From Axinella damicornis (lineage: Eukaryota; Porifera; Demospongiae; Axinellida; Axinellidae): a stretch of DNA of 64,000 nt. Where the stretch lies: contig OZ007509.1 in NCBI GenBank assembly GCA_963931865.1, forward strand, positions 17,784,508 through 17,848,507, in the 5' to 3' direction. The translations under genes and the position numbers were made by a program. The notes beneath the pieces were generated by a model. That model saw only the letters and a list, made by a program, of their open reading frames with translations, ran no database searches and was not told the DNA's origin. Below, in pieces: positions 5,463 to 64,000 of the stretch (position 1 is its first letter; each line of letters begins with the position of its first letter).

Positions 5463-5768
5463 CAAAGTAGCTTGAAACTGCCTTCCATTGCCCAAAACAG
5501 TCACCACACTGTGCCCTCACTCCAAACCTGGAGGTGGTTAGTGGTATGAGACCGGAATCTTTATCGAGTACTAAGCTGGTGGTGGAGCAGTATATTTCAA
5601 CGTTGTCTCCTCCCTTTGGCTCGAAACGAACGTGGTACTGGGTGACGTCTCGCCAGGAATGTTGAGTTCCAGCCCCAACATTTGATGGTGGGTCCCAGGT
5701 GAGGGTTACAGATGGGACATTTGGGTTTAGAATAGCTGCCAGATTCCCAACTTGATCAGGAACCAGAG
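5463..5768 (-). CDS. Gene C FN3 exon 13
   Basis: 306-nt phase-1 FN3 exon: LVPDQVGNLAAILN, VTLTWDPPSNVGAGTQ, YHVRFEPKGGDN, IPLTTSRFGVRAQCGDC. The donor is GTAAGT and the acceptor CTACAG. Twin of 46176 and 62359. It is the last exon visible in gene C. The remaining 5.4 kb to the window edge contains only repeats and unassigned DNA. Confidence 0.85.
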
Positions 5769-8700
5769 CTGTAGGGGGCATACACGTATGAGAGCATAGT
5801 TAACAATTTCTGCTATACATAATCCTCAATCCCAACAGTAAGTTACTGCTATACATTTGAAACTTGCCTAGTGATAAACAGGTATCCATTGTTAAAACCA
5901 TAATGCACTCTGTAGCAGCCAAATGAGCCTGGAGAATACCAATAAGCCTAATATTAGGCGTTAATACTTGTACATGCTCTTCCGCTTCTTTTCACTAACT
6001 GTTGGTATGTTAATTGAACTACTGGCAAATGGAATTAAGATGTGACCATCATCGTGATTAATTCCAGAATTCCTTCAACTAAAAGCAGTGTTGTTAGGTA
6101 CGTACATCCCACGTACATGCATACACTTACCTGCAAAATGTAAGTTTGATACACTTCTGCACTCTTGACTTTCATTGTTACCACTGTATGCCGTCACTTG
6201 GAGAGAGGACAAAGTCCCAGAAGATTCCGGCACTCCTGTGATGACAGTCTCAGAAGTACAACCATTCACAACCTTCATACCATAGCTGACCCTTTCATTG
6301 TCCAAGAAATGGATCTGATACTTAGTCACAGATCCTGGATATGCAGCATTGGCTGGTGGGTCCCACTTCAGCGTCACAGAAGGTTTGTGTGTGTTCACAG
6401 CTGATTTTAAGTTTTGAATTGGGCCAGGAGTGAGAGCTGTATATATGAAGAGATACAATGCAGTACTATCCAATTTGCAGTACAGATTGTTACCGAATGG
6501 TATAGTGAGACCCCACCTCAAAATCAGTGAGATTGGCACAAAATGAGTGAGACCCTGTGAACGCTCAACTCATGACACAATAAATACCCTCGACATTCAC
6601 AGGTCAAATAAATTTGACCTGTGAATGTCAGCTAGGGTCAAGGCATAAAATGAGTGAAATTCCAAAGTATATAGGGGCGTGTCCACATAGTTTGATTAAC
6701 TAGAAGTCAAAGGGCATACTAAAAAGTATTAGTTATTGTTATAGTTAATTAAAACAACACTAGAATGAACTCATACATACCAATGTATTCAGAAACTTTC
6801 CTCCATTCTCCTTTATTGTGATCAGCATTCCGTGCCCTGACTTGAAAGTCGTACGTTGTCAGTGGATTGAGGCCATTCTCCCTCGTAAGGAGAACACTAG
6901 TAGCTTGAGAATCCACAGTCATCTTATGGTAGTCTTTCCTCCGCCGACTTCCAGCCGGTCTGAAGCGAATGTTATACGATGTCACATCTTCTGCAGCTTT
7001 GACATTACTTGGTTTGTCCCAGGTCAGGGTCAGAGAAGGTCGGTTAGTGTCCGAGGTTAACCTCAGGTTCTGAACTTGCCCTGGAACCAGTGCTGCAGGA
7101 GAGAGTGGGAATCACTGAAGACACAAGTGACTTTGGATTAAATGCATATGAACCAGTGTATTTGTGCATGTCAAGCATATAAGGACCATTTCTTTCTCAA
7201 GACAGATAAGGCACAGATCAGCTACAAAGACAATCATGAATTATTGGGGCGAGCGTGAGCGAGCCCCAGTTTGCTGCAAATTTTATATATATTTATATAT
7301 ATATCGAGGGGCAACCGCACTCCTGGTAGCCGTTGCAACTCCGCGGTTGCCTCGCCGTAGCGCAGGCTAATTATTGCAATTCGTTCCAATTAACGCACAT
7401 GCCACGTGGCAACCACGCTCAGTCGATCGCGAGCAATGGCGACCAAAACGAAGACAAGACATTATTACAGCACTCACAACTTAGCCAGCACGGTGAGTTT
7501 CGGCATGTAAGCGTCAGTGAACGACAGCGATCACGGCTGTGTGGTCAGAATCTTCGTGTGCCTTTCCTAAGAACGGTACTGCCACCGGAAGTCGAAGAGA
7601 GCGCTCGAGCAATGGCGGCCAACGGCGAGACAAAAGCGTTCATATCTCTACCACCAAGGTGAGTTTCAGCACAATTATTTTGATTTTGTGTCACTGCATC
7701 ATAGCGATCATGGCGGTGTAGTTAGAATCTTTGTAGGCCATTCAGAAGTAGTCAAACGTTTATTACATTATTTACATTATTTACATTACGAGGGGCAACC
7801 GCACTCCTGGTAGCCGCGGTTAAACGATAGCACAAGCTAAGTGTGACAGTTCGTTCCAATTATCACACAACCCATGAGTACCATGATAGCTATATATAGG
7901 GAAGATCAGATATTGCTCTCAAGTACCCATTCATAGCCGCCCGGTTGCGACTCGCCGTAGCGCTAGTTTCCAATTAACGCACATGCCACGTGGCAACCAC
8001 GCTCAGTCGATCGCGAGCAATGGCGACCAAAAGGAAGACAAGACATTATTACAGCACTCACAACTTAGCCAGCACGGTGAGTATCGGCATGTAAGCGTCA
8101 GTGAAGGACAGCGATCACGGCTGTGTGGTCAGAATCTTCGTGCGCCTTTCCTAAGAACGGTACTGCAACGGAAGTCGAAGAGAGCGCTCGAGCAATGGCG
8201 GCCAACGGCGAGACAAAAGCGTTCATATCTCTACAACCAAGGTGAGTTTCAGCACAAATATTTTGATTTTGTGTCACTGCAGCATAGCGATCACGGCGGT
8301 GTAGTTAGAATCTTTGTAGGCCATTCGGAAGTAGTCAAACGTTTATTAGATTATTTAGATTAGTTTAGAATACGAGAAGCAACCGCACTCCTGGTAGCAG
8401 CCGATGCAACCGGTTGCAACTCGCTGGTAGCGCACGGCCGTGTGGTCTGAATCTTCGTGTGCCTTTCCTAAAAACGCCCCAGGCTCATATCTCCACCACC
8501 AAGGTGAATTTCAACACCAACTTTTACATTCAGGTCAGTGCATGATAGTGATCATGGCGGTGTAGTCAGAATTTCTGTAGGCCAAGCCTAAGTACTCAAA
8601 CATTATTTAATATGTTTATTTCTGCTTTGTTGACGAGGGGCAACCGCACTCCTGGTAGCCGCGTTGCAACCGGTTGCGACTCGACGGTAGCGCAAGCTAG

Positions 8701-17700: not shown

Positions 17701-20700
17701 GGGGGGGGGGGGGGGGGGGGACTACGTAGTATGTGCAAACAATGTGGATGTATTGCACCATGCAAAAGCCTGCCTTACATTTAGAATTGGCTGCACAGAA
17801 TGTTCCAATAATATGATGTACGTAGTATTACTGATGAAAATTAGTAAAGATGAGGTACCAACCAGAATGAGAGTTTCCCTTGAGCCGTTCAGAAATGCTG
17901 CTCCATTCTCCTTCACAGTCATCAGCACTCCGTGCTCGGACCTCAAAGTCGTATGCTTTCAGTGGGTTGAGGCCATTCTCCCTTGTAAGGAGAACACTAG
18001 TAGCTGGAGAATCCACAGTCATCTTATGGTAGCCTTGCATCAACCAATTTCTGGTTGGTCTAAAGCGAATGTCATATGCTGTCACATCTTCAGCAGTTTT
18101 GACATTAATTGGTTTGTCCCAGGTCAGGGTCAGAGAAGGTCGGTTAGTGTCCAGGGTTGACCTCAGGTTCTGAACTTTCCCTGGAACCAGAGCTGCAAGA
18201 GAGAGAGAGAGTGGGAATAATCTTTCTATATTTCATTGGGAATATATACCGTAGACCGGGAAATTTTCATTGCTAAAATATTTTCGTAGTTGCCCGCAAC
18301 CACGAAAATTTAATGCACGAAAGTTATTTACAACGGATACTTTTTACGGTCAGCCACGTGTAAACTAGTAGTAGTACTGAATTCACCTGTGCATGCTGCG
18401 CTCACGGTCCTTAAAGTTCTGCGATGCCACAGATGGACTCACCGATCTCAAAAGATCTCTGTCGCTCTCTGTTCCTTCGCGAGGTATTGCCTCAGAGAAT
18501 CGGGAGGTGCTCGATTCGACAAACGGCGGGCCGAAGCGGAAGGGAAGAAGTGCGGGCCGTACAGGAGATACAGTACAGCCCAGAAGAACACTTTGTCGGT
18601 ACGTCAGTGACAATGGCATAGCAGCAGCTCGTTCGTACATCTCCATTCTTGACAAAATGATCGTTAAATATTTTTTCATTGATGAGCTAAAACTACGAAA
18701 ATTTAACGCCACGTAAAATTAACACACAAAATATTTTTAACACGAAAATTTCCCGATCTACGGTACTGGCAGTGGGAAGAGTGCAGTACGTGGGTGGGTG
18801 TGTGTGCACAAAAAATTACCGTGCTATGTTAAATACATGCTAAAGAAGGTAGCGGAAACCACATTAGAGTTGCATGCCATGAACTCTTGCTCATAATTAC
18901 ATTGAGTGCACATGTACCAATATATTCCGACACTGAGCTCCATTCTCCTTCATGGTTCTCATTCTGTGCTCTGACTTCAAAGTCATACTTAGTTAGTGGT
19001 TTGAGTCCATCCTGTGTTGTAATCAGAATGCTTGTTGTGGGTGCCTTGACGGTCATATTGCAATAGGAATCTTCCCTCATGCATCCAGACGGTCTGAAAC
19101 GAATGATGTATGTTCCTACATCGGTAGTAGTTTGGGTGTTGTTTGGCCTGTCCCAATTCAGGGTCAGAGAAGGCCCACTTGTGTCCGGGACAGATCTCAA
19201 GTTCTGAACCACCCCTGGAACCAGAGCTGTGTAGAAAGAAGAAAATCACAGACAGCTGAACCACCAACTAACAAGGGCGGTGGAACAGGGAGGAAGGCAA
19301 TCTGAGTACCTATTCAGATGCCAAAGCTACATAGCCCATGGCAAGAGAGCAGCATTAGCCTCAGCCAAATTTCAACTCAGTCTCTCTCTCTTTTTCTCAG
19401 TGGACATGCAAACGTATTTGTGATTGACGTGTTGAGGGTGTAATATTTTACATGTAATTGTAAAGCGATCAGTTAGCAGTGCTGTTCTACCATGTTTCAA
19501 TAGTACTAACATACAGGCAATGGATCACAAAATGCCAGCATGCCGCAGTGCTGGGGGCTATATACAGCCTCCTCTATCTAGCACCCTCCTGTGGGTTCAA
19601 TTATTCTGTGGTTTTGATTTCTCTCTCTCTCAATATCATGGCAAGCTGAGCCTACTGTCTCATACAGTAAATATCAGCCAACTCCGGTCCACAGATATGC
19701 ATTGCTCAATGGTAGCTATAATGACTTCAGACGCACATCTTCTTGTACAACATGTGCCTATGAACCAACATAAGATAATGTACAGACTGCAAACTTACGG
19801 ATATATTTTGAATATCTGGTCCATTTTCCTTTACGATCTAAACTCCGTGCCCGGATTTCAAAGTCGTACTTTGTCAATGGCTTGAGGCCAGATTCCCACG
19901 TGAGAAGAATGCTTGTTGCAGGAGGTTTTACATTCTTCTTATAATAGTTTCCTTCCCATCCAGATCGAGTAGGTTTGAAACGAATGTCATAAGACACCTC
20001 TCCATCAGTAACGCTAACCATGTTCTCTGGCATGTCCCAGTTCAGGGTCAGAGTAGGAAGGTTAGTATCCAGAGTTGACCTTAGGTTCTGAACATACCCT
20101 GGAGTCAGAGCTGCAGGGGCATACACAAGGCACAGAATTCATACATGTATATACAAGGATAAGCCTCACCCCATTTACTTGCCATTTATAGAGTTTACTA
20201 TGCAATGGCTTGTAACATTTAATTGCAATAAAATACATACCACAGAATTCTGATGCTTTCACCCATTCTCCTTCACCACAATCATTTCGGGGCCTGACTT
20301 CAAAGTTGTACTTCTTCGATGAAACAAGTCTAGATTCAATGCTGGCAGTGCAGGAGTCCTTCACCGTCATCTCATGATAACGCCCACTTCCATCTGGCTT
20401 GAAACGAATCTGATACTCACTCAGTTCTTCAGCTGTTTGAATATTGACTGGTGGGTTCCAGCTCAGAGTCACACCCTCATCAACGGTTACTGACAAGTTT
20501 CTGACTGGATCCGGATGTAGAGCTGGAGATATAAAGTGCCGTCATTATGATTCACGCGTTGTCTTACAGTCAGAAACAGCTATAAGTCACTACACTGGTA
20601 GCTATGTGAACCATTAATGAGGATAAATGCACAAACCAGCTAAAAGTAATCTCTGGATCAGCTTTGCCACACTCACAGAATTGACACATTGGAGTTTGAA

Positions 20701-23700
20701 CCTCGGCTCCTCTGCTATTAGAATTACAGAAATTTATTCAAGGGCTACATTTATTCAAGTTTGGCATTAAATATAATTACTTTGGTCAGTACGATCCGTG
20801 CCGTGTACCCCAGCTCCATTCACATCACCCCTAGTTATAGCTTCCAGTCAAAGTCTGTCAATAAGCCTTTCAAAAAGGTATGGCTATACAAAAGCGCGTC
20901 GAGAAACAACAAGTCACAATGGGCAAGATTCGGGAAGTGCTGTCTTTAGCTGGAGCAAAGCTTCGATTAGCCAGCACCAAAGTGACATGCACAAACTTCT
21001 CTCCAGAGGTGGAGGATGATGAGAATGAAACAGTCTTGGACGACTGTTAAAACTATTTAGAAAACTATTATATAGCTACATGTGCAATTCTCCACGTGTA
21101 TCTAGTATGACATTGTATTTCGCTCACGTGCTTACCGCATATAGCGGCTGCGGCATTTTTTCAGGGTGGTGTTTAGTTCTCTCAACACCTACAATTGTGC
21201 AACATTTATTTGAGGACGGCATCCATTTGAGGGTGGCAGCGATTCACCACGGCTGCTGAGTTATGAACATTTCTGATTTCCCGTTGGTTGCCATCACTAG
21301 TTGTTGGCAGCATGGATAATAGAACACGGGGAACTGGATTGGAAACGCGCGCGCCGCCCTATTCTTAATGTATGGAATGTCGGCACGACCTTTGATTGAA
21401 TGCGAGTTTGTTGTCCCTCTGGTGCCGCACAGGAACTGTCCTGGGGCTTACCTCTTGTACCGTTGGATCGGCCTTCAGCAGGTGTATGCCCAAAGCAGTA
21501 AGTTTTGCTCCTGAGTTGTAGATAAAAAGCATGTTTGGGCTGCCCTAAAAAAAACGGACATATCCCTGAAATTGTGATACCCGTGTACTGTTGCACTTAC
21601 CAGTCATTACTCAGGACTGTCAGGAGTGAAAGTTGCCGCTTTGGGCATACACCAGTTAAAGACCGATCGAACCATATGAAAGGTAAGCCTCAGAACGGTT
21701 TCCGTGTGGCACCAGAGGGCAAACTTGAGCGAAACCCACATTCAATCCCGTAAACGCGCGTTTCCAATCCAGTTCCGTGCTCTATTATCCATGTTGGCAG
21801 TTGTGATGTCATGTACAGTATGTGTCAAAGGGATAGTGAGCAATGGTGGCCAACGGGAAAACGGAAGCAATAAAAAATTCAAATTAGACCAGTTAGAGGA
21901 TAAATTTGGGACGGGTGGGGATGATTACAAGGCCTAAGCTAGCCACCTACAAGAACAAAGATATAGCTTAAGCACAAGCTGGTGGATGCAATCAGAGTCA
22001 CAGTTGAAGTGCCTACGTAACTGAGTCTTGTAATTGGTCCTTTCAATAAAAAATAATAACTATGAGCACAAATAGACACTTACCAATGTATTTACACAGT
22101 TCACTCCATTTTCCTTCACGAGAAACACTCTGTGCCCGGACTTCAAAGGTGTACTTTGTCAGTGCCTTGAGGCCAGATTCCCTCGTGAGAATAATACTTG
22201 TTGCAGGAGGAACTACAGTCTTCATGCAATACTTCCCTTTCCTTCCACACAGTTGGAAACGAATGTCATAAGACTTCACAGCAACCATGTTCTTTGGTTT
22301 GTCCCATTTCAGGGTCAGAGTAGGTGTGTCAGGGTCCAGAGTTGACCTCAGGTTCTGAACTTGGCCTGGAGCCAGCGCTGCAGGATACAGTTTGGAGTGT
22401 GATGTGATATAAAGCGGCCACTCCCTTCTGAACATATAACATACAAAATTGTTTGAAGCAGTTCAAACAGGAGCGAGGTGTGCATGTACACAATCATTGT
22501 ACATCCGGATGGATACGTCTTCTGAGACCCCGGCTACCTGGTAGCTATCATAGAGTCGGTAGACTCTATATGTAGGGATACAACGGACACGCAATAGAAG
22601 CTAATACAAAAAAATCTTCCCAAATCTCTCCAAATCTCAAAAACGGGCAGCAAATAAGCCTTTATGACAACTTACTATTCGTCTTCGAGTGTTTTCCTGG
22701 CCCAGAAGACTCCCAGTATCGTGAATAACCGTTGCAAAAGTACCGCGCCAAAAAGTCGCCAAACCGCCAAAATCGGTTTTCTTCTTCTTCTTTCTTCAGA
22801 CGGGCTAGTTCAAATTTGGCTGACTCCCTCACGACTGTGTTTGCACAAAACAGCAGCATTTTACACTGAGCAGTGCATGACCCCATCGCTTTTTGGCTAC
22901 TTCGAAGTCTCACGAGGCGCTTGAAACCGCCCACTTGATAAATATGGCTTCATGTGCGACGCCATTTTCTTTATATGTGCGCATGCGTAGAGCAACTTTG
23001 AACTTTGAACTTTGAACTCAAAATTGTGTACTGTGTGCGGAGTGAATGCTATCAAGTATGCTGCTATAAAAATGAGGTAAACAAACATTAAAAATGTATG
23101 GAGATGTAGGGATAACAGAACAGCAAAAAGTATGAAAACAAGCAGGGATGATGGCATAAAACAGTTCAGTATACAACACCCTACATACTTTTCTCATTAT
23201 ACATGTATTATGTGGAAAGATATGTAAAATGGTGTTGTATACTAAACTGTTTTATGCCATCATCCCTGCTTGTTTTCATACTTTTTGCTGTTCTGTTATC
23301 CCTACATCTCCATACATTTTTAATGTTTTTTACACTTGTATATATGTTCTATAACTAAAAGTGTGTGCAAAGCAAGCTAATATGCCCCTTCTTCATGATA
23401 CCATAGGTGCTCTAATTATGCGTCCTTTCTAAATCTGCGTCAAAATTCAATGTCTCAAACCGATAATTTCCAGTACTGCTTCAAAGTTGTAGTTCTTTGA
23501 CGACAAAAACCCTCTGGGGACTAATTTCCTGCCATTGTGTAACGCAATTATAATGGCAGCTAGCTCAATAGTACATAGTACTGCACATCACTGCCTGTAA
23601 ACGTTGATGTATCAAGGCACAGTTGCGAGCCCCAGGATATGGACGCCCCGTGTGGGAGAAAAGTCGACAGTCAGACAACCGGGAACAAACACAACTGTTA

Positions 23701-26446: not shown

Positions 26447-26478
<32 letters not shown>

Positions 26479-33425: not shown

Positions 33426-33527
33426 AGACGTATAACTATAACAATCAAAAAGGTGATTCTTGGGCACTGTATATAATGGCACACAAACATGACATTGTGT
33501 GTATACAGAACAACACAAAAGCAAAAC

Positions 33528-35242: not shown

Positions 35243-35273
<31 letters not shown>

Positions 35274-49098: not shown

Positions 49099-49190
49099 TC
49101 ACCTAGGAGCTTGCTGGCGCAACTATGAAAAAGTACCGGGACTACAGACTCGGGAATGGACTCAGGACTCGATAATAAACTTTCGGGGAT

Positions 49191-50040: not shown

Positions 50041-50490
50041 GGAGAGGGGGGTGAAACAGTAGAACCATTCCATACAGCATAGAACTGAATGAGTACTGCT
50101 TGCAGCATGGGTGTCTGGACCGCAGTTTCGGAATCATCAATTTTGATGCAGGATTAGAGTGGCGCAAATTTAGAGCGCTTATACGGTACAACATTTTGAC
50201 TGTTATCACAGGGCAGTAATTGCCCTTGCTTACCACATTACATCCTGTTGTGCACTGCATTGGGGAACCACCTGGGAAGTCCCATGTGCAAGGGCCGTAC
50301 TACATTGTCAATAGTGGCCAAAATAAGGCTGCGTGCAGATACAATTATCCTAGCACTACAAAGTTACATCACACCATTTCTAGATTGCTGCACGTTACAC
50401 ACTGGATTCATCCGCTACCTGAATCAGCATGTGCACCCATCATCGTACTATAATTATAAGTTTTACAATCTTACTTCCCATCCCTCATAT

Positions 50491-51626: not shown

Positions 51627-53292
51627 CATATAACAAGTGCTTCTGCACAAGAGGACTTGTAGCTATGAGCCGACAGGAGGTAGAGGCGATGAACCAGAAG
51701 TTTAGGAATGGGATGGGGTAATGCATAGCATTCCCACTGGCATGGTACGACAGCTGAGATCAGTAAAAGGACTTTATTTGCTTTCTAAAACTATCTAGCT
51801 ATTATGGTACGCAGCTAACTGTGGCTGGCTCCCCAATTAATAGCATCTAGCAGTGTCTTTTTGCAGGAACCACAGGAACCACACGAACCATGGAGACGGT
51901 TGTCATCATAACAGCATTATGATATTGTGGATCCCTAACCAAACGTGCAACAATCCTGAGTACATGCATGCACATCAGTGTATAGCTAGCTAGCTAGCTA
52001 GCTACTCCGCAAAAACAACGTCTTGCATAACAATTTGCTCACCTTCAGGTCGCCCTACAAATTGTCCCATATCGACGCAACCTTGGTAGGTACCCTAGAT
52101 ACATCGTTCGTGAGTTCCGCATGCAGGTGGAAATGGAAAATGGCGGGGCCCTTTTCGTTTTTGCGGTCAGTAATTAACCTTGTGGGCGTTAAAGGGGGTG
52201 GGGCTGCCACCCTCCGTACAGCTCCGATTACTACCATGACCTAATGACCTCTCGTTGCTACTCCCTCCCTCCCCTTCCTCAACTGCTGTGCGTATGGCAA
52301 TTGCACTGATCATGCAGCATTCGTGCCCACTTTGCTGACAACAAGCAAGTAGAACAGCTAGCTAACTAAACTAGTGCGGCCGGGGCTTTTCTGGATCATC
52401 ACGGTGACATCACAGTTTAACCTAGTGCAGGCAATACTTGATTGCTAAGGCATGTAAAGTGCCATGATGTGGAAGTTGCCAGGTCATTTCTCCTACAAAG
52501 GGCCTAGCTTGGAACAGGGCTGGGTTGGATTGGGAATGGGAATGAAATGAGAACGGTAAAGTGGGCCCGGGAATGTTAACAACAATGCCTCACTGATCTT
52601 TAACTCCTAAATGATCCTTCCCTGCGGATGAGCCTCATGAGGGACTGGAGAGGTGAACGTAGTATACACCATTCAACACAAAGACAACATAATATTTTGA
52701 GGGTGACAGATATAAGGAAACAGGCTGTACACTAAAATGGAAAACTAATAGGATGGTGGTACACAACCAAGGGAAAGTCAAACCAGAAAACACAATTACA
52801 CTGAAGTAGCATTAATCTAATTCTTGGTCGATGTCACTGTATATTGGTATGTATTCATTTGCATAGCAACACAGAGCAACACAGAGATGTATATATTTGC
52901 ATGAGGGGACAGGTAAGGATATATAGCACTAAAAAGGAGCAATAACATAGGGTGGTGGTGCACAATCAAAGGAAATCAAACTAGAAAACAATTAATTTTG
53001 GCATTACACTGATCGATGTAGTATTAATCAAATTCTTGGTCGACGTCACTGTACATAACCTATATCAGCGTGTATTCATATGCATAGATACAGAGCAACA
53101 CAAAGACGTATTTACAGGGTAATTTGGGGGAACAATAACATAGGGTGGTGGTGGTACACAACCAAGGGAAAGTCAAACCAGAAAACGAAGACGTATAACT
53201 ATAACAATCAAAAAGGCGATTCTTGGGCACTGTATATAATGGAACATAAACATGACATTGTGTGTATATACGGAACAACACAAAAGCAAAAC
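51627..53292. other. Intergenic DNA downstream of gene A PARP exon
   Basis: Aligns with 31508-33527 of the left duplicate, without the SINE. It holds a (GCTA)n run (51984-52000) and about 190-bp repeats (52740-53195). No coding signal. Confidence 0.45.
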
Positions 53293-53909
53293 TTAGTTTT
53301 GGCAAAAGAATATGTAACGTGGGTGAATGGCTCGGTGATCAAAGATGACCAGTTCATCATAGTTCAGTTCTCCCCTGCTTCCCGCATAGAATGAGTGGTA
53401 TCCAGTTGGAGGGTAAGATGGGCCACGGAATTGAATGGTGTATTTGTTTCCAGGAGCAATGTCACATAAGAGAACTGAGCTGTAACAAGAATTCCTTTCT
53501 CTGACCACTGCACCAAATCTATTGTTGATTGCGTAGTCATGAGACTTGGAGGACTTAGGAGCAAAATAGAAGCCCTCTCCAAATCTTTGAAATGAACTCC
53601 TGCTGATCCTTTGAGGATCAAACCCTTTCCTTGCAATTCCACAAGCACCACAGTTCGTATTTTCACACAGCTCTGCTGAATTTGCGAGGTCACAGCAAAG
53701 CCGTGTGCCGTGGTAATGTTGTTCAACACCTTGTAAGAACCTTGGCAAAGTGTGGCGATAACTTTCAAACGTCACCGATGTCACTGGGTTGATAATCATG
53801 GCAATGGAGATGATGGAAGGGCATCGGCCTTTACCTCTAGCCCAATCTCTGTGGAACTTCTCACAAAGATTGGCATACTCTTGTGATTGGGAGTCCAGCT
53901 TCACAACAC
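53293..53909 (-). CDS. Gene A terminal exon: PARP catalytic domain
   Basis: Encodes 204 residues and a TAA stop, entered in phase 1 after a TTACAG acceptor. Numbering from the first full codon, an H-Y-E triad is visible: His66 in HYHGT, Tyr114 in GEGFYFAP and Glu185 in NYDELVIF. In PARP enzymes this triad binds NAD+ and supports ADP-ribose chain transfer. A Cys cluster between (CENTNCGACG, residues 81-90) and the LNYDELVIF...IHPRY ending match a PARP-like subfamily I associate with fungal and invertebrate proteins, rather than PARP1 itself. The length suits a bare catalytic core without the helical regulatory domain. The upstream partner in the transcript is the FN3 exon at 54682. Substrate and cellular location cannot be read from the sequence. 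Confidence 0.85.
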
Positions 53910-55145
53910 CTGTAAGAAATTTAAAAGAAGGGTAAGTAGAATACGATTTAATCCCAATCATGAAGCTATCCCAGTCTGGAGGCTTGCACATACGGACGCT
54001 CGTAGCGAGTGCTGACTCGAACTCTTGTTGAAAGAGTATCTAACTGTTTGTGTTCATGCAGTCCCTGCATCTGCATCGAAATGTAACTAGCAGTCAAGCT
54101 TGAGAGCTCAACTAGTTGGTTAAGTTCAACCTTCAGTCCCAGACCATAGACTGTGATGTTGACATGGGAATGAGGCTGTTGAGGTTAGGAATATAATACA
54201 CACCGCTCGGGCATAGCACATAGTTACGTACACAGAAAAGTGACAAACTGTGCTGTTTTTGGAGTTGGTGTGTGTGTGTGTGCATCACAAATGAAGCCAT
54301 AGTTGTTGAGTGGGCGGTTTCAAGCACCTCAAAAGACTTTGAAAAACCAATGGGTTCATGCACTGCTCAGTGTGAAATGCTGCTGTTTTGTGTGAAACCC
54401 GTCATGAGGGAGTCAGGCAATTTTGAACTACCCCATCTGAAAAAAGAAAACCGATTTTGGCAGTTATGCGATTTTCTGGTGTGGTACTTGCAATGTGGTG
54501 CACATACCCAATAATGCTTTTGTGTATTACAAATGTCACCAACTGATGAGACCCTATGCAGAGGAACAAGCTAGCTAGGATTGTCCACACCATAACTGTG
54601 CCTACTGAGGTGCTCTTGCCTATCAAGAAAAGCATAAATTATATACTATCACGCACAAAAATAATGTACATATGTACGTACCAAAAGGTTTAAATTTGCT
54701 CCATCCTCCTGTGTAGTAAATATTTCGTGCCCTAACTTGAATTTCATACATTGTCAGTGACTGGAATCCTGATGTCTCTGTAATCTGTATGCTTGTCGCA
54801 GGTGCGTTCACATAGTAGCAACTTTCAATTGTGCTTCCAGACGGTCTGATTGTAATCTCGTATGTGGTCACATCTCCGTATGCTCTGTAATTACTTGGAG
54901 GGTCCCAGTTTACGATCATACTGGAGTATGTGTTCAGGGTGGCTCTCAGGTTCTGAACTGGCCCTGGGACTAGAGCTGTAGGAGAGGGGGTGAACAAAAT
55001 ACACTTTTAGCATCACTTCGCTGACTTTCAAACTACACTCCAAAAGCAGCCAGGGCTGTTCATGAGCAGGTTCCTGAATGGTACTGTTCATGTGGCCACA
55101 GGCTACATGCTAACTGAATGCTATTGCGAGCGTGGGTGGGTGGGT

Positions 55146-55187
<42 letters not shown>

Positions 55188-58100
55188 GTGTGGGCTGGGG
55201 AGTGTGGTACCAGAACAGGATGAAATGGTTCCAGGCCAACCACACTCACACTCATGCATGGCAGTGCAACCCCGGTTGTGACTCACCATAGTGCAAGCTA
55301 TGAATTCCAATTCGTGCCACGTTGTAACCACGCTGAGTCGATCCATGTCGATCGCTAGCAATGGCAGCCAAAGGATTGTTACTGTGCTCACAACTTTGCC
55401 AGCACGGTGAGTTTCGGCATGAAAGCATCAATGAATGGCAGCGATCAACATTCGCGAGAAAGCGGTGCACCGTTCAGTGTAAAAACTACTGTTTTGTGCG
55501 AAACTCATGAGAGAGTCATGCCATTTGGCATTTGGCAACTTTCTGGTTCGTTACTTTCTTGGGACACAGGGAATATTCTTGGTCAGCGAATCAGTCGACG
55601 ATGAATTGAGATTTTTTCATACAACACGTGTCTGCTCTATCCCTGCATACAGGGAGTACCAATTGACTCTATGATGATCCCTGTCTTGGTACAACCAGAT
55701 ACGTACCTACAAATGTCGACACGGCCCTCCACTCTCGGCTTACGTCATCACCACTGCAGGCCCTCACATTGAAAGTGAATGTAGTCAGTGGTCTGAGCCC
55801 TGACTCTCTTTTGATGACAGCGGCAGTGGTAGAACCATTCACAAACATTTCACCAAACTTTACACCAGTCTCATTATCCTGGAAACAGATTCCATATTTA
55901 GTAACATCTCCTGCATATGCAGCATTGGCCGGTGGGCCCCAGTTCAGTGTCACAGAAGGCTCGTATGCATCCACAGCAGCCGTCAGATTTTGAACTGGGT
56001 CTGGAGTGAGAGCTGCAGCAAAAATGAATAACAAGTGAGTCTTTAAAAGACTTGATGTGTCTCGGCACGACTTGGTATCCGCTAGAATCATGCAGAGGAC
56101 ATGGCAGCTGTTTAACCCTTTATCCTGTACGTTAGCTATGAGACTTTCAGCTTAAGTGAGCGTCAATATCCTTGAAGATTCTGTATGAGCAAGGGGTGGG
56201 TCAGGGTGAGGTGGGAATGTTCACCCAAAGGGCGAAAGCAGTATGGTCGTGTCTGGGCTTGATGTTTAGTCTGCCAGGTGGGCCGTTTTGATTCATAGAC
56301 AACACCTTGGCCAATTCTTTCAGCACTTATCTAGCTATCTAGCTAGCTAGCTAGCTAGCTAGCTAGAGCTGAGTGAGTTAGTAATGTATGCACTTGAGTG
56401 CAGCACACTGTGTAGCTATGGATGAGTGAGTATTCATTGTCCTGAATTAGTCTTGGTAAGAGGATTCATGAGCAGCCATGCAAACCCATAATCACGTTTG
56501 ATGATCCACTTGCAGGCTATAAATACGTTTGACACCCTATTAAGCGTGTAGAGCAGCACTAGAGCGGCGCATTGCGAAAAGCAATGTATGTACCACGTAC
56601 GTACGTACGTACCACGTACGTACGTACGTACCTACGCATCCAGCACTGTGTCTCGGCACTTCGGTGCCGAGACAAAAACCTATAATGCATTTGCATACAC
56701 ATAGAAAACCATAATGTTGGCTTTCATACAAGAATGATACCAAAACCACTGCACACAAACTTTATGAAATCATCCTTGGATTCGTCTTCCATCCACCCAT
56801 CGTATACTATCGTAGTTTCCCAAGAAACCAGACATAGTCACCTTATATATGCCTGTATTACATCAACCACCTACACATATTAATGAGATTCATAGTTGGT
56901 GAGAATTCGCCCTCAAAACGGCCTAGACTTGCACTGTGTGCCAGTTTGGGATGGTTTGCCGATTTTTAATGAGATTCATTGATCCTCCATGCACATATTA
57001 ACCCTTTAACCACCGAATTCTTCCCACCAAGACAACACATTTTCATGCATTCAGCGCACACCACTTTCGTAGGTACTCCTCTCCCACAGCATACGCTCCT
57101 CAGCGGCCAAACTTGGTGGGGCCCGCACACATGGAGAGACCCCTCTGGCAATACCCTTAATGATATTCATGACCCCCCACAAGGCCAGCAATCGGAGGTC
57201 AAATGTGGATGTCAGCCGGATTTTCGCCCAGCATTTCCCTAAACTTGGGCCAGATCCGACTGATGGCACACCTTACACCACCAATTTGCATGTTTTCTTG
57301 AGGCCCTGGGTGGGGTCTATGAATATCATTAGAATCAAATATCCTGGGGCCAACGAATCTCATTAAAATCAAAAAACGCCCACGACAGTCGAAGGGGGGG
57401 CCCCCGCCCCCCCTTTCGAAACCCCCCTGCCTTTCGTTTAGTGGGGAGGCCGCGCCGAAATCTGACCAAATTTTTGGGTTCGTCCCTCACAATTGTCCCT
57501 AGGCCCTCTGAAGACTTTTTGGTCTCTTTTTGGACTGACGAGAAGCCCTATGAGTGCATAGGGTCAAAATGACGCCTATAGACGTCAATGGGGCTTAAAG
57601 GGTTAATACCATCATTCATTCCAAACACTGTTTTTCTGTGAGGAATCATCTACCTCATGATGCATATTCATGAAATCACATTAATTGCTCCTCAATTCAT
57701 GGGTACACAACCAGTTTGCAGTACATTACGGCATTTAGTGCCCATGTGCACTAAACCCTGTAATGCACATGTAACTGGTATCTAAACTATACTTAGTGCT
57801 ACTCACTGACCTGAAACCGCCATTGGTCTTTAAGAGTACTAACTGAATCTTACAATCTCCAAAACCTCAAAATCTAACTCCTTACAAAACAAGCACTGCT
57901 AATGCACATATATAACAACAAAGGTGAGGACAAGAAGGTACAAAAGAACAAAAGAAGTCATCCTGTGAACCAGGGGCTCCCACCAAAGTTGAGCAAACAC
58001 TAATTAACACTGTTTAACAGTTCCAGTCCTCCACACTTAAGCAAATAACACTTAAGTGTGCATTAAGGTAGCAAACATGGGTACAGCGATCTCCGAAACC

Positions 58101-61100
58101 AAGTTGATGGATAAATGGGCAGCATCAAAGCGTACACAAGTTTCAGCAATACTTTGCATCAAACTGCTCCCTCTGCTTGAAAATGCCCTAAAACTCAATT
58201 TTAAGGCCCTCTACGAAACTGAAAATTTGGACCCTCTCCAAGGCCCCACCCACACTCTGACCCCATCATCAATACACACACAAAACAGGCCAAAAAACTA
58301 CGTATGGATTTACCACCTGCTCTCCTCAGCAGGGGCATAGCTAGGATTTGGAGGAGGCATAGAGTTCTCGCGCAGTGACAAATTTTCGAACTAATTAATT
58401 ATTCATAAGTTAATATGCAGTGCGCGCAAACAGTTGCTTTCGAAATGCTACAGCAATATGCCGGTGCCCAGACTGTCCCAGACTTGCAGCACTATCAGCG
58501 TTAAGAGTATACGCCGGCTCATGGTCAGCCTAGCTCCTGTCTCTGTCATCAGATCGAACGCACATCGTACGCGTGGAGTGTGCGAGACTCCAGACGCGCG
58601 TCATTATCCAGAAAAGCGAGGAGGCAACTGCCTCCCTTGCCTCATTGCTAGCTACGCCCTAGCTCAGTTGCAGGCTACAGCCCAAAACTCACTGCCGCCC
58701 TCAAAAACAGAGGTTTGGCTACCCTAGGAATTTTTCCCACGTTCACCTCTCGGTTATAGAAGCTTGGCCACACATCTACTCGCTCTCACCAGCCCAGTCC
58801 AGCTACCAAACCAGCCAAATTTGCCCTAACACGAAATGGGCGGGGCCTGTAATGCCGAAAGGTCAACTCTCTAGAGTACCTTGGCCAGGGAGCTGTTGGA
58901 GGCTGTTCACTTTCCAGGCTGTTTTTCGGCCACTTCAGCAGTCCCACAAACATTCCTGCTCACTCCACCTAGCTATTCACACTCAGATAGCCCATCACTA
59001 CATTCATTAATCTCCTTTCTTTAAAAAATTTTTTTTTTTTTTACCCTGTGCGCATGCGCAGCAGGGGGTAGAGTGATCGGTTTGTCTGTCAGTCTGTTCA
59101 TAGGCCGTTCAAGCGGTTTGAGCAGTGAAAGCCTTGTTGAAGGCTTATTTCAGGATAGAAGCGTCAGAATTCAGAAATACTAGCGTCTACATAACTCACA
59201 GACTAGAGATCTACTCGAGAGGCTGAGAAAAGCTGTGTGAAATTCGTGCTTCTAATTTATACAACTTGACCACACTCTATTTCTAACATTACTGCCACAA
59301 CTTACGGTATCTCATTTTGCATGCTGACATCGCTGTAAATCGTGGCCTAGCTAGCTCATCGTGCATACTGTATGAATAATCGGTGGTAGGACTATAGCTG
59401 TCAAGTCAAAGTTGCGCACGGGGTACGTGCTCTGCTGAGCACCTCTAGTTTTTTTTTAAGTGTTCAAACAAACCTTCAAAGTACCGCACGGCCACATCAG
59501 AGTACTGATTTGAAACTTGAAAGGGCCGCTAGCCGCATCAAAGAGAGAAGCCCTCCTTGTTTATTCCAGTTACCGCCATGGGAAAACGTAAACAGATTAA
59601 TAACTCTGAATAACCGTACATGAGTGACGTCATCTCATCAATTATTCACGAGCAAAATTGCGCGATTTCGCTGATGTCATGTTTCCTACCTTAAGCAATT
59701 TAATGTTCAGTCATGTGATCGATTCTGAGGTGTCTGATTTGTTGAGGGTCATGTGAGTAGGTCTAAGGTGTGTTTATCAAATGATTTGTAAGTAACTCAG
59801 CCATCTGACATGGAAACGTATGATGTAGATTGTACCAGCCCACTGATGAATTAGACATAGTCCTTCCCGAAGAGTCTTTCATAACTAAGCAAAATGAAAT
59901 TTAAGGCACTACCTGATCCCTGAATGTCATATGTCCTCCTATGCAAACTATAATGCACAAAAACAGCTTTTGGCTTCTCTGCTAAACGGAAGAAATTGTG
60001 CAACCTAAAAGGGCCCCAACCGCTGGCCATGCAGCTAAAATGTGATGGTTTTACCACTCATATCTCAGCTTTGTTCATCCTCAATTAAGTTCCCAGCCCA
60101 CTGATGAATTAGACATAGTCCTTCCCGAAGAGTCTTTCATAACTAAGCAAAATGAAATTTAAGGCACTACCTGATCCCTGAATCTCATATGTCCTCCTAT
60201 GCAAACTATAATGCACAAAAACAGCTTTTGGCTTCTCTGCTAAACAGAAGAAATTGTGCAACCTAAAAGGGCCCCAACCACTGGCCATGCAGCTAAAATG
60301 TGATGGTTTTACTACTCGTATCAGCTTTGTTCATCCTCAATTAAGTTCCCAGCATTTTCCGTATACCTTTTTGACAGGCCAACACATGTGATCCCTGTCT
60401 TGGTACAACGTTGCACATACCTACAAACGTTGACACGGTCCTCCACTCTCGGCTGACATCATCACCGCTGCAGGCCCTCACATTGAAAGTGAATGTAGTC
60501 AGTGGTCTGAGCCCTGACTGTCTTGTGATGACAGTGGCAGTGGTAGAACCATTCTCAACCTTTACACCAGAGAAATGTGTCTCATTATCCTGGAAACAGA
60601 TTTCATATTTAGTGATATCTCCTGCATGTGCAGCATTGGCCGGTGGGTCCCAGTTCAGTGTCACAGAAGGCTCGTGGCTGTTCACATCAGGTGTTAGATT
60701 TTGAACTGGGTCTGGAGTAAGAGCTGTAGCAATATAGATCAAGTGCATATGCATGAATATCAATACTGCACTGTGTGCTTGTATATACTAAATGTGTGCT
60801 TTTAAAGGACTAGGACATTGCGGGGCAAGCATCGCATTTCACAGCCACCATGCAAAGAGAGAGTGAAGTCCTGCTGAGGGTCAGCGAGGTCACAGTAGGT
60901 GCAGAAGGTTTGTGATAGCTAATTAGTACTTTAACTCTTGGCACCAGTCTAGCTGCACAGATAGTCATGTCGGTACAACTATATATCCCATCCTGGTCTC
61001 GTTCTTTTGCTTTTGTATTCAGCATATTGAGCTTTGTTCCAGATAAGGTATATTAATCATGCGTACCATCCAATGATGGAAAGTTGATAAATATGCTGAA

Positions 61101-64000
61101 AGAGATATACATAAATTATGTAAATTCAAGCCATACATTACATGTAGACGCATGTCATTGTTCTCCTTAAAAAACATTCAATGGTACACATCAGGTGTGC
61201 AAGTTACACACACCTGCACAGCAAGGTCGCACACCTGCACAGCAAGGTCTACATACCTATAAACCTTGATACAGTTCTCGACTCTTGGCTTGCACAATCA
61301 CGGTGGCTGTAGGCCCTCACTTTGAAAGTGAATGTAGTCAGTGGTCTGAGCCCCGACCCTCTTGTGATCTCAGTGGTGGTGACGGAACCACTCACAACCT
61401 TTTTACGGCAGCAACCCGATTCCTCGTCACAGAAATAAATCTGATACTTAGTGATACCTCCCACATCAGCAGCATTAGCGGGTGGGACCCACTTCAGTGT
61501 CACAGAAGGCTTGTGTGTGTCCACATGTGCTGTCAGATTTTGGACTAGGTCTGGAGTGAAAGCTGGAGTAGGAGATATGCATCAGTATTCTGTTTCAGCG
61601 TATATAGCTGTGACCATGGATGATATGCTCTATGGACTTTAATTATAGATTGTTGATTGGCAGGCCAGCCCCCAAACATGCCTCTACTCAGTCTACTCTA
61701 CCATACAAAAGGAATCTACAAAATTCAGGCTCAAAAGCTGATGAGAACACCACACAGCATTGCTTATTCACACTGCTTCATGTCCACCTGGAGTCCGTCA
61801 TAGCTCATTACATAATTATGCACATGACCTTTGACCTGTATGAACTTGAGGAAACATGCTTCAACAGGCTATGGAGCGAGTTTAGTAAAGTAACTGAGTG
61901 AATGGTGAATAAGTAATCCAAGCTTCTGTCGAAGCATTTTATTGCCGTTTAGCCAGTTCCCCATTCCAGTCCCACATTCCAGTTCAAAATCCAGTCCCAC
62001 ATTCCAGCGGAAAATCCAGTCCAGCGATTAGAGACACCCCACAAATGAGGAGCTTTGAATAGCGAGCTGTAAATTAGTCCACTAACTCAGGCTCCAAGGC
62101 TGAGGTTGTATGAGTAGATCGATGTGCTGGAATCATAAAGGACTTAGGAAGTCAATGGCTGGTTGCCTCCATGATATCTACAGCTACCCAACCCAGACTG
62201 GGCACCAAATGGGTTTAATGAGGCAGGAGATGCGGACACAACTGAGAAGGGTTGCCTACATTACAAGACAAAGATGAACAGCAGGGACATATATTCTCAG
62301 TACCACTCAGTATTCACTTCCTTGTCCACAGACAGAGATAGCCAAGAAGAATACTTACCAATGTATCTTGAAACTGCACCACATTGTCCAATACAGTCAC
62401 CACACCGGGCCCTCACTTCAAACCTGGAGGTGGTTAGCGGTATGAGACCAGAACGTTTATCAAGTACTACGCTGGTGCCGGAGCAGCACTTGCTTCCTCC
62501 TCCTGGCTCGATACGAATGTGGTATTTGGTGACGTCTCGCCAGGAACATTGAGTTCCAGCCCCAACATTTGATGGTGGGTCCCAGGTCAGGGTTACAGAT
62601 GGGACATCTGGGTTTAGACTAGCTGCCAGATTCCCAACTCGATTTGGAACCAGAGCTGTAAGGGGATATATATGTGAGCATAGTTTACAATTTGTGATAT
62701 ATAGCTCTCCTGATGTGCATGTGAAATTCCCTTGCTACAGGTATCAATTGTTAATCACATCCACATTACTTACGTACTAGGTATGTGAATGCATGACGGT
62801 GTGGGGCAAGCTTGAGCGAGAGCAAACACACAACATGAAGCATTTTCCTGCACATTCCTTACCTATACACACTATCATCCCATCCCTCACTTCTACAATT
62901 CAGGGATGGGATGGGACTTAGGATGGGTAGTGGCAAATCCTTTTACCTTTTCAGAGAAAATTAATATTAATTTTTACTTTGTTGTATATAGACACGTACC
63001 TGCAAACTGTAAGTTTGATACACTTCTGCACTCTTGACTTTCATTTTTACCACTGCAGGCCGTCACTTCGAGAGAAGATGAAGTCTGAGAAGAAACTGGC
63101 TCTCCTGCGATGATAGTCTCAGTAGTACAACCATTCACAACCTTCATACCATAGCAGACCCTTTCACTGTCCAAGAAACGGATCTGATACTTAGTCACAG
63201 ATCCCGGATCTGCAGCATTGGCTGGTGGGTCCCACTTCAGCGTCACAGAAGGGTTGTGTGTGTTCACAGCTGATTTTAAGTTCTGAATTGGGCCTGGAGT
63301 GAGAGCTGTAGATATGAAGAGATGCAGTACCGTGCAAATATGCAGTACAGACTGTTGCCAATTTGCTATTCAGAACTTATCTAGTTGCTGTGATATGCAT
63401 TGTGAAGCTCATGCACATTCAAGTTAGAAATCCATGCATAAGAAGCCTCTATCCTCGAGTATCAACATGTAATTACAAAACATTTTTTGATTGAGAAATT
63501 TATAACACTTCAGAAACTTATAGACACCTATGTATAGGATCTACTATGTCGACTCGGAGGTTGTGCGATTTATCCTCCACGGGAAAGTTTAGCCGAGGCG
63601 AAGCCGAGGCTCAACTTTCCCAAGAGGTTATAACCGGAGGATAATTTATCCTCCGCGGTACATCAAAGGAACGCCCACGCACTGTGGTAGAAGTCAAGAA
63701 GTGCAAGGGTCTCTACTGGGATAATTGAACAGATATAACTACTCCCCGGTCTGTATCTCATCATCGGAGAAGCACTGTTGGTGAATGAACATACCAATGT
63801 ATTCAGAAAATTTGTTCCATTCTCCATCTTGACCAGCATTCCGTGCCCTGACTTCAAAGTCATATGTTGTCAGTGGATTGAGGCCCGTAAGGAGAACACT
63901 AGTAGCTGGAGAATCCACAGTCCTCTCATCATATGTGTATATATAATCTTGTATCCACCAAATTCCAGCTGGTCTAAAATGAATGTCATATGCTGTCACA
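53293..64000 (-). CDS. Gene A: FN3 plus PARP gene, 5' end outside window
   Basis: Gene-level model: a partial FN3 exon at the right edge (63795 onward), FN3 exons 63000-63305, 62359-62655, 61257-61562, 60421-60723, 55707-56012 and 54682-54975, and the terminal PARP exon 53293-53909. All visible exons are open and phase-compatible, so gene A looks like the intact reference copy of the family in this window. The 4.4-kb intron between 56012 and 60421 holds a TTAA-flanked element, a 5-bp-TSD element, a Helitron-like element and a 258-bp tandem duplication. Confidence 0.65.
54682..54975 (-). CDS. Gene A last FN3 exon, directly before PARP exon
   Basis: 294-nt phase-1 FN3 exon: ALVPGPVQNLRATLN, MIVNWDPPSNYRAYGD, YEITIRPSGSTIES, LTMYEIQVRARNIYYTGGW. 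The donor is GTACGT and the acceptor CTACAG. It splices in phase to 53909. It is the intact counterpart of the frameshifted 34758-35067. Confidence 0.85.
55707..56012 (-). CDS. Gene A FN3 exon
   Basis: 306-nt phase-1 FN3 exon: ALTPDPVQNLTAAVDAYEP, VTLNWGPPANAAYAG, YGICFQDNETGVKFG, LRPLTTFTFNVRACSGDDV. The donor is GTACGT and the acceptor CTGCAG. Paralogue of 35971-36267. Confidence 0.85.
56030..56674. other. Insertion in gene A intron ending in a TTCG-loop hairpin
   Basis: Absent from the left duplicate at 36270-36290. It includes (CTAG)n at 56330-56365 and a CGTACGTACGTAC repeat near 56590-56630. It ends with an 11-bp perfect stem (56649-56659 with 56664-56674) closed by TTCG. The 5' half of that stem sequence also occurs at 56057. 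Confidence 0.5.
57002..57602. mobile_element. TTAA-flanked piggyBac-like element, copy 2
   Basis: 601 bp, inverted relative to 50598-51201, with TTAA on both sides. The minus frame keeps the same GVPTKVVCAECMKMCC run. Both copies have lost the rest of a transposase. Confidence 0.75.
58330..58662. mobile_element. 5-bp-TSD TIR element (AGGGGCGTAGC family), copy 2
   Basis: 333 bp from CAGGGGCATAGCTAGG to CTAGCTACGCCCTAG, with CTCAG on both sides (58325-58329 and 58663-58667). The interior matches 644-982 in inverse orientation. Confidence 0.75.
59041..59448 (+). mobile_element. Helitron-like element, copy 3
   Basis: Diverged relative of 39746-40222: TTACCCTGTGCGCATGCG start, GTTTGTCTGTCAGTC, and a 3' hairpin GTGCTC/GAGCAC before CTCTAG and a T. 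The stem differs in sequence from copy 1 but still pairs. Confidence 0.55.
59836..60352. repeat. 258-bp tandem duplication
   Basis: Two nearly identical units starting CAGCCCACTGATGAATTAG at 59836 and 60094. A single diverged copy is at 37430-37690. It lies directly 3' of the FN3 exon 60421. Confidence 0.8.
60421..60723 (-). CDS. Gene A FN3 exon
   Basis: 303-nt phase-1 FN3 exon: ALTPDPVQNLTPDVNSHEP, VTLNWDPPANAAHAG, YEICFQDNETHFSG, LRPLTTFTFNVRACSGDDV. The donor is GTATGT. Close to 55707 and 35971. Confidence 0.85.
61257..61562 (-). CDS. Gene A FN3 exon (AHVDTHKPSV subtype)
   Basis: 306-nt phase-1 FN3 exon, the single gene A member of the subtype amplified in gene B. It has the VTLKWVPPANAADV and YQIYFCDEESGCC signatures, and DLVQ in place of DPVQ at the start. 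A 15-base direct repeat (ACACCTGCACAGCAA) stands twice just outside the donor. Confidence 0.85.
62359..62655 (-). CDS. Gene A FN3 exon lacking an internal Met start
   Basis: Found by translating between the splice sites. It has no ATG of its own and is easily missed by start-based ORF calling. It is 297 nt, phase 1 and fully open: LVPNRVGNLAASLN, VTLTWDPPSNVGAGTQ, YHIRIEPGGGSKCC, IPLTTSRFEVRARCGDC. The donor is GTAAGT and the acceptor TTACAG. Twin of 5463 and 46176. Confidence 0.85.
63000..63305 (-). CDS. Gene A FN3 exon (SAVNTHNPSV subtype)
   Basis: 306-nt phase-1 exon, open, twin of 6131-6436: ALTPGPIQNLKSAVN, VTLKWDPPANAADPG, YQIRFLDSERVCYG, followed by the same degenerate F/G-strand region (SSLEVTACSGKNES). 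The donor is GTACGT. Confidence 0.8.
63306..63794. other. Gene A intron at right edge
   Basis: No exon signal. A hairpin-rich stretch at 63560-63660 has GGAAAGTT/AACTTTCC arms around repeated GCCGAGGC, bordered by repeated TTTATCCTCC. Probably a small foldback element. Confidence 0.4.
63795..64000 (-). CDS. Gene A FN3 exon, cut by window edge
   Basis: Partial FN3: TAYDIHFRPAGIWW, SPATSVLLTGLNPLTTYD, FEVRARNAGQDGEW, SEYIG before a GTATGT donor. The 5' part lies beyond the window. Same subtype as 6781-7092. A six-residue YIYTYD insertion lengthens the loop after the IHF strand, and the usual REN before GLNPL is missing. Confidence 0.8.

Follow-up and report, generated by a model that had tools for sequence, protein, structure and literature searches.

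A sponge gene cluster with predicted fusions of FN3 exon arrays to a PARP catalytic domain

Do the long FN3 exon arrays of a sponge genome belong to the same genes as the PARP exons that follow them, and where in the cell would such a protein act? The question is raised by a window of 64,000 nucleotides from Axinella damicornis (contig OZ007509.1, here C5, positions 17784508-17848507, in an assembly of 226 Mb and 120 contigs); coordinates below 1 or above 64000 denote its flanks. An original prediction, made from the letters alone, had described a tandem family of FN3(n)-PARP genes whose products are possibly secreted or membrane-routed. Domains known to accompany PARPs include zinc fingers, macrodomains, WWE domains and ankyrin repeats. 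The best overall explanation, to which we assign a probability of about one half, is that the window holds lineage-expanded FN3-array genes spliced to a C-terminal PARP exon, which would encode intracellular sensor-effectors or scaffold-effectors.

We trained a hidden Markov model (HMM) on 12 FN3 exons of the window and searched 164 kb, i.e., the window and 50 kb on either side, at E ≤ 0.01. All 36 matches were on the minus strand, and nothing was found beyond window coordinates -3388..65432 within the 164 kb. Inside the window lay 31 matches, corresponding to 29 FN3 exons because two exons split by frameshifts were counted double; the single strand and phase 1 of the original prediction were confirmed, and its count of 30 exons was corrected. 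The matches form three runs with a PARP exon after each, i.e., three tandem FN3(n)-PARP genes with 9, 9 and 16 FN3 exons, respectively (Table 1). Two terminal PARP exons with an H-Y-E triad had been predicted to splice in phase; triad and phase-1 acceptors (53909, 34144 and -3941) hold for all three genes, the third PARP exon being located just beyond the window. The three PARP exons scored 43.7-47.3 bits with Pfam PARP (PF00644, cut-off 26.7), and five of seven submitted cluster exons passed Pfam fn3 (PF00041), the remaining two reaching 15.9 and 22.6 bits against a cut-off of 25.

Splice sites were ranked with a simple consensus score restricted to sites that leave the FN3 frame open. The top acceptor was of phase 1 in all 32 unbroken FN3 exons and the top donor in 31 of 32, and all 32 can be read as phase 1-1; in two exons the acceptor adopted was the second-ranked one, with unchanged phase. 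The gene 3 model comprises 18 exons (a start exon of 28 bases, 16 FN3 exons and one PARP exon) and 1,822 residues, with 17 GT-AG introns, one weak donor and a sole, terminal stop codon. Pfam assigned 14 FN3 stretches (fn3, 472.8 bits) and PARP to this model.

From their sequences, the genes look like tandem duplicates, with local FN3 exon duplication in addition within gene 2. DNA identity was 86% between genes 1 and 2 over 1.8 kb around the PARP exons and 82% over 1.0 kb further upstream; at their first FN3 exons, genes 2 and 3 were 88% identical over 1.0 kb. The similarity runs through introns and spacers. Inside gene 2, FN3 exon copies at 39.0, 40.4, 42.6 and 44.6 kb were 92-94% identical. 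Tandem duplication with a variable FN3 number, now 9 to 16 exons in three genes, had been predicted and is supported.

When one FN3 exon was used as query against the genome (best 150 of 204 candidates scored), at least 75 matches were obtained. Among these 75, 69 were located on the same strand as, and at most 40 kb upstream of, eight PARP exons of one subfamily (on C5, C14, C3 and C1), and six were not. For comparison, a genome search with Pfam FN3 gave 1,571 first-look candidates, and 150 of 150 scored candidates matched. The PARP subfamily comprises 16 exons in the genome; a ninth FN3-linked one, C5:16803146, was recognised on inspecting its upstream DNA. Neither gene 2 nor gene 3 has a methionine in its PARP exon. 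Furthermore, P0125, a database open reading frame (ORF) of 525 residues, holds FN3-FN3-Zn motif-PARP in a single frame, with both domains above the Pfam cut-offs. As a genome query (82 of 101 candidates scored) P0125 gave 80 matches, and its FN3 part matched FN3 exons at or near PARP loci, except for C14:2953179, which lies on the opposite strand at a distance of 37 kb from the C14 gene. In the database protein P0124, three FN3 domains are joined at junctions of the predicted type (FIALTP, FVALTP); it aligns best, and co-linearly, with exons 2-4 of gene 1 (57% identity), nearly equal alignments being obtained with further FN3 runs from genes 1 and 3. The end of P0124 seems to pass into sequence resembling an intron, and the entry may represent a partly spliced RNA.

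FN3-array genes and distinct PARP genes might also stand side by side without being spliced to each other, as the junction is read from genomic DNA, but this is very improbable in view of the upstream, same-strand position of 69 of 75 FN3 matches, the Met-less PARP exons of genes 2 and 3 and the single ORF of P0125; on the same grounds we rejected a separate PARP gene. We consider it very likely from the genomic sequence that FN3 and PARP exons form fused genes. The predicted fusion recurs beyond the cluster, at other genome loci and in P0125. Several points weigh against this explanation: the FN3 exon of C5:16803146 scores 21.3, i.e., under the Pfam cut-off; seven of the 16 subfamily PARP exons have no FN3 in the approximately 4-5 kb of upstream DNA inspected, and FN3 is therefore not a constant partner of this PARP; P0124 and P0125 are database entries that may derive from RNA or DNA; and FN3-PARP splicing in the cluster is read from genomic DNA. 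In a search for long database relatives (about 616-1960 residues) of the gene 1 model, none of 512 candidates reached E ≤ 0.001, so that full-length homologues are not demonstrable; the protein database seems to consist mostly of ORFs from unspliced DNA. Prokaryote and viral collections contained no relatives.

Hydrophobic leaders had been described for the start exons of genes 2 and 3, and secretion had been proposed as a possibility. Both open frames end exactly at a splice acceptor, TTACAG/TTAGTGA and TTACAG/TTGGTGA, respectively (the slash marks the junction), and the corresponding acceptors are TGCAG/TTGGTGA in the C14 gene and TCTAG/TTGGTGA in the C3 gene. In the C3 leader frame, an upstream stop is followed by eight codons without Met before the junction codon; in C14, a single Met follows the last stop, four codons before the junction codon. 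Because the acceptor is common to four genes, and in view of the C3 stop without Met and the position of the C14 Met, the leader is most likely the pyrimidine tract of an intron, and after comparison of the four first-FN3 acceptors it was rejected as a signal peptide. A conserved Met-Gly start exon was located farther upstream instead. Among the four upstream regions compared, one block was common to five of five inter-locus comparisons (blastn E 0.003 to 3e-5). This block extends from an ATG to a donor (G/GTGAG in each case) and would encode MGQFLGRPE in gene 3, MGQFVGRPE in gene 2, MGQSAGRPE in C3 and MGQSVVLPE in C14. Three codons show silent-only differences among genes 2, 3 and C3, and replacements fall on residues 4 and 5 (in C14 also on 6 and 7). 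Two further weak similarities linked C3 with gene 2, and some weak translated matches were obtained; neither kind was shared by the remaining loci. The start exon can be found only via comparison with C14 and C3, because the similarity of genes 2 and 3 spans much of the spacer. An exact start-exon pattern, composed after inspecting the four sequences, occurred three times in the 226-Mb genome (genes 2, 3 and C3) and not in the reversed control, with C14 off by one constrained base. The spliced proteins would begin with MGQ....PEV and continue directly into FN3.

In Kyte-Doolittle analysis with 19-residue windows, peak hydropathy was 0.99 for gene 3 and 1.55 for gene 1, and 1.55 was not exceeded by any window of P0125 or of the gene 3 and (partial) gene 1 products, i.e., these contain no transmembrane-like stretch. 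Likewise, no signal peptide was evident on reading the predicted MGQ... start exons (genes 2, 3, C3 and C14). Given the Met-Gly start and the absence of any evident signal peptide or transmembrane helix, the protein quite likely stays inside the cell. A secreted or membrane-spanning FN3 receptor in allorecognition or defence, with its PARP domain extracellular or cytosolic, is improbable. In its favour, FN3 is common in adhesion molecules, and ahead of the first FN3 of genes 2 and 3 there is indeed an open frame that contains Met and hydrophobic residues. In addition, N-glycosylation sequons are slightly enriched over shuffles in the gene 1 FN3 part (15 versus 9.5, p 0.034), as could be expected of an extracellular protein, which is a point against our localization; the gene 3 FN3 part (15 versus 15.1) and the gene 1 PARP part (0 versus 1.3) have no such excess. 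The shared acceptor at the end of the leader frame, the conserved MGQ... start exon and the lack of a transmembrane-like stretch argue against such a receptor.

Three kinds of N-terminus begin with Met-Gly, i.e., MGQ..., MGICCSCC of P0125 and the candidate MGCCCGKKS of a gene at C1:21392, where the start MGCCCGKKSG is followed by a phase-1 donor. In both the C1:21392 gene and P0125, FN3 and PARP are separated by a Zn-like motif, CxxPGC, and on account of this shared motif they may be one type. Of six starts, five matched the myristoylation pattern; the C14 start, MGQSVV, does not fit and counts against acylation. As a background, this start rule gave six candidates in the 164 kb of both strands, five of them on the minus strand, where two MGQ exons are expected to be included. 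For gene 1, the MGQ block was absent from 6.6 kb upstream, the MGQ pattern gave none in the 164 kb, and 14.5 kb upstream contained no myristoylation-pattern start exon, other start-exon kinds not having been sought. Neither an MGQ nor a myristoylation-pattern start exon was present in the DNA pieces inspected for the C1:21306942 and C5:16803146 genes. From these sequences, we see the chances of an N-acylated N-terminus as evenly balanced, and possible acylation is what remains of the membrane routing originally proposed, its signal peptide or transmembrane component having been dropped. A further ORF on C1 (L027:3282, plus strand) has a myristoylation-like start, MGNSTSTG, ahead of Zn-like motifs; downstream of it, Pfam PARP matched at C1:21306399, where our own PARP profile gave no match.

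The H-Y-E triad corresponds to H66, Y114 and E185 in all three cluster PARP exons. The gene 3 PARP exon was matched by 261 database proteins, and over 123 proteins, i.e., 120 of these matches and the three cluster exons, His was retained in 123, Tyr in 122 and Glu in 119. Four cysteines between the His and Tyr motifs, C72, C81, C86 and C89, were invariant in a chosen 78-row alignment. An AlphaFold2 model of the exon (pLDDT 90.8, pTM 0.89) gave 380 PDB chains at E ≤ 0.001 in Foldseek with tankyrases on top, the best match being tankyrase 1 (E 1.9e-14, TM 0.76/0.75); a tankyrase was also the closest solved relative in the sequence search (E 2.4e-8). By this model, the PARP exon is predicted to adopt an ADP-ribosyltransferase fold, and retention of the triad makes an active transferase likely.

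In a PARP tree of 18 rows, 17 of them with H-Y-E, a split with 98/97 support separates nine FN3-linked rows, the Zn-type C12:5302 and the unplaced P0082 from seven Zn-type or other rows including Ephydatia; a 72-residue PARP fragment (L035) was excluded as shorter than 150 residues. The FN3 label requires two changes on this tree, a number as low in 24 of 500 shuffles, and would fit a single FN3 gain and one loss; labels refer to the DNA pieces inspected, and a Zn-type gene might have FN3 farther off. An adverse case is C5:16803146, which is FN3-linked and has Q aligned at the triad Tyr and a long branch. At one locus (L034), our own PARP profile gave no match, though Pfam PARP had matched. 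Sister PARP genes on C12 and C1 (L023, L024, L027 and L028) carry at least one CxLPGC...CxxxH Zn-like motif and no FN3 in the pieces inspected; a search for CxxPGC-type Zn-like motifs found none in the 164-kb C5 cluster. On C1 near 21.29 Mb, a Zn-type PARP exon has as its neighbour an oppositely oriented NADAR ORF (L028:2045-3391, minus strand, Pfam 137.7 bits). As NADAR proteins are connected with the metabolism of ADP-ribose, a writer and a possible eraser would be adjacent here. On C10, caspase-domain and RING/B-box ORFs (L026:1192-1596 and 3372-4349, plus strand) lie upstream of a same-strand PARP exon, possibly as one gene or as neighbours.

For the three pairs of PARP exons, ratios of nonsynonymous to synonymous change (dN/dS, Nei-Gojobori) were 0.35, 0.45 and 0.60; for eight pairs of FN3 exons selected as closest counterparts, they were 0.46-1.25. 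This trend would be in keeping with a conserved enzyme whose FN3 modules are relaxed or diversifying. Because each FN3 module is one exon of phase 1-1, modules could be gained or lost without breaking the frame. It is rather unlikely that the C5 cluster consists mostly of decaying copies, with functional genes elsewhere (C14:2990021, C3:13181421, C1). Gene 2 contains two frameshifted FN3 exons and one without its 3' end, and no start exon was found for gene 1, so that gene 3 alone looks complete, which also weakens our explanation; however, the PARP frame is open and contains the triad in each of the three genes, gene 2 included, PARP dN/dS is below 1 in three of three pairs, and gene 3 is open from start to stop.

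With fused genes and a probably intracellular product, we propose the following mechanism. The protein would remain intracellular and, if its N-terminus is myristoylated (in the C1/P0125 type palmitoylated too), be held at the inner membrane face. A protein partner or ligand would be bound by the FN3 array, and through this binding or through clustering the PARP domain would come to lie beside substrates, which it would ADP-ribosylate using NAD+. An FN3 array that changes faster than the catalytic exon attached to it would be in keeping with a sensor- or scaffold-effector in innate immunity or self/non-self signalling. A recognition-effector function is plausible, and we propose an immune or recognition role only tentatively. 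A close rival is an ordinary intracellular scaffold enzyme, in which the FN3 array holds PARP at a cytoskeletal or signalling site without any immune role, and MGQ is merely a start. This scaffold role is possible to a similar degree: no signal peptide or transmembrane helix is evident, intracellular FN3 arrays exist in cytosolic giant proteins such as titin and twitchin, and sister genes have Zn-like motifs ahead of the same PARP. A weak argument against it is that tandem duplication, 9 to 16 FN3 exons, frameshifts and several FN3 dN/dS values near 1 resemble a rapidly changing family more than a housekeeping one. Still going beyond the recognition-effector reading, a new animal sensor-effector class of lipid-anchored, rapidly changing intracellular FN3 arrays with an active ADP-ribosyltransferase, expanded in sponges and devoid of NLR or Toll parts, must be considered unlikely for now.

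Coordinates of the cluster exons are listed in Table 1. Several introns contain repeats. A 29-base GC-rich minisatellite is present at 13185-14061 (gene 3 intron) and, in opposite orientation, at 51291-51485 (intron 1 of gene 2 as predicted); a related sequence lies near 68.8 kb. A gene 1 intron has a 258-base tandem duplication of 97% identity (59835-60353), and within one intron of gene 3, arrays of an 18-base tandem repeat on the two strands (2059-2267 and 2665-2808, about 0.4 kb apart) form a large inverted repeat. Elsewhere in the assembly, a COX1-like frame of 486 residues without internal stop lies within a long contig (C4:14811759-14813060), which may reflect contamination, transfer or misassembly. 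On C120 (24924-30292), mitochondrial cox1 is found in three pieces and reads with code 4; between two of these pieces, an ORF looks endonuclease-like on visual inspection.

Table 1. Predicted exons of the three FN3-PARP genes, in window coordinates.
Feature	Position	Strand	Evidence and remarks
Gene 1 FN3 exons 1-2	65437-65129, 64815-64501	-	outside window
Gene 1 FN3 exon 3	63795..64000, continuing to 64106	-	HMM, splice scoring
Gene 1 FN3 exon	63000..63305	-	HMM, splice scoring; 22.6 bits, under Pfam cut-off
Gene 1 FN3 exon	62359..62655	-	HMM, splice scoring; 15.9 bits, under Pfam cut-off
Gene 1 FN3 exon	61257..61562	-	HMM, splice scoring; second-ranked acceptor, phase unchanged
Gene 1 FN3 exon	60421..60723	-	HMM, splice scoring
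Gene 1 FN3 exon	55707..56012	-	HMM, splice scoring
Gene 1 last FN3 exon	54682..54975	-	Pfam, splice scoring; donor TTG/GTACGT
Gene 1 terminal exon, PARP catalytic domain	53293..53909	-	Pfam; stop codon included
Gene 2 predicted start exon MGQFVGRPE	52043..52070	-	donor G/GTGAGC
Gene 2 first FN3 exon	48741..49019	-	acceptor TTACAG/TTAGTGA; former leader directly upstream, taken as intron
Gene 2 FN3 exon, frameshifted	47777..48064	-	HMM
Gene 2 FN3 exon	46176..46484	-	HMM, splice scoring
Gene 2 FN3 exon	44633..44938	-	HMM, splice scoring
Gene 2 FN3 exon	42599..42904	-	HMM, splice scoring
Gene 2 FN3 exon	40448..40753	-	HMM, splice scoring
Gene 2 FN3 exon, degenerate 3' end	39000..39260	-	HMM
Gene 2 FN3 exon	35971..36267	-	HMM, splice scoring
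Gene 2 last FN3 exon, frameshifted	34758..35067	-	HMM
Gene 2 terminal exon, PARP catalytic domain	33528..34144	-	Pfam; open frame, 204 residues without Met
Gene 3 predicted start exon MGQFLGRPE	31984..32011	-	donor G/GTGAGC
Gene 3 first FN3 exon	30284..30562	-	acceptor TTACAG/TTGGTGA
Gene 3 FN3 exon	29042..29338	-	HMM, Pfam, gene model
Gene 3 FN3 exon	27751..28050	-	HMM, gene model
Gene 3 FN3 exon	26572..26883	-	HMM, gene model
Gene 3 FN3 exon	24134..24415	-	HMM, gene model
Gene 3 FN3 exon	22084..22377	-	HMM, gene model
Gene 3 FN3 exon	20241..20522	-	HMM, gene model
Gene 3 FN3 exon	19799..20110	-	HMM, gene model
Gene 3 FN3 exon	18918..19226	-	top donor not phase 1, second-ranked donor phase 1
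Gene 3 FN3 exon	17863..18192	-	weak donor CTG/GTTGGT
Gene 3 FN3 exon	6781..7092	-	HMM, Pfam, gene model
Gene 3 FN3 exon	6131..6436	-	HMM, gene model
Gene 3 FN3 exon	5463..5768	-	HMM, gene model
Gene 3 last three FN3 exons	-35..-337, -2099..-2392, -3090..-3395	-	outside window
Gene 3 terminal PARP exon	-3941..-4557	-	outside window; Pfam

Among known systems, tankyrases (PARP5a/b) are the nearest solved relatives by sequence and fold and share the H-Y-E triad. In tankyrases, ankyrin repeats and a SAM domain precede the PARP domain, whereas neither is among the 13 Pfam families of the gene 3 model; moreover, the four invariant cysteines of this PARP stand between the His and Tyr motifs, and the tankyrase zinc site is located elsewhere. 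The Ephydatia muelleri protein EMCRGX_G002379 (P0105, 309 residues) belongs to the same PARP subfamily, with 39% identity, the triad and the same four cysteines, but has another Cys-containing N-terminus, no FN3 match and a place on the opposite branch of the tree. P0125 is alike in its FN3-FN3-PARP frame and Met-Gly start and differs by its CxxPGC Zn-like motif, which a motif search did not reveal in the 164-kb cluster.

Nine PARP types have been described in sponges, with PARP14-like proteins of Amphimedon carrying macrodomains (PMC4245714). PARP14-like and TRADD-N effectors of marine animals are likewise lineage-expanded in sponges and other sessile forms and in some cases PARP-terminated, but bear macro, WWE, KH, RRM or Death/TRADD-N domains (PMC4245714, PMC8195603); macrodomain and WWE, the hallmarks of the PARP14-like clade 3, were not among the 13 Pfam families of gene 3. 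The words 'fibronectin' and 'FN3' are absent from the main texts of two PARP surveys (PMC4245714, PMC2964712) and of PMC8195603. Among the matches listed, we did not find an FN3-array PARP described in the open-access literature; it may already exist unremarked in annotation. As judged from sequence, FN3-PARP genes would combine known domains in a combination not found described, with an unusual N-terminus. If active and membrane-held, their products would target ADP-ribosylation in a novel manner, and this in an early-branching animal; frame-neutral one-exon FN3 modules would be a simple route for diversifying the binding part. The genes also offer a clean test of NAD+-consuming enzymes in sponge recognition or defence. 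By analogy, a NAD+-using effector on a variable binding array would fit the lineage-expanded effector systems of sessile marine animals, for which roles in immunity or cell death have been proposed (PMC8195603).

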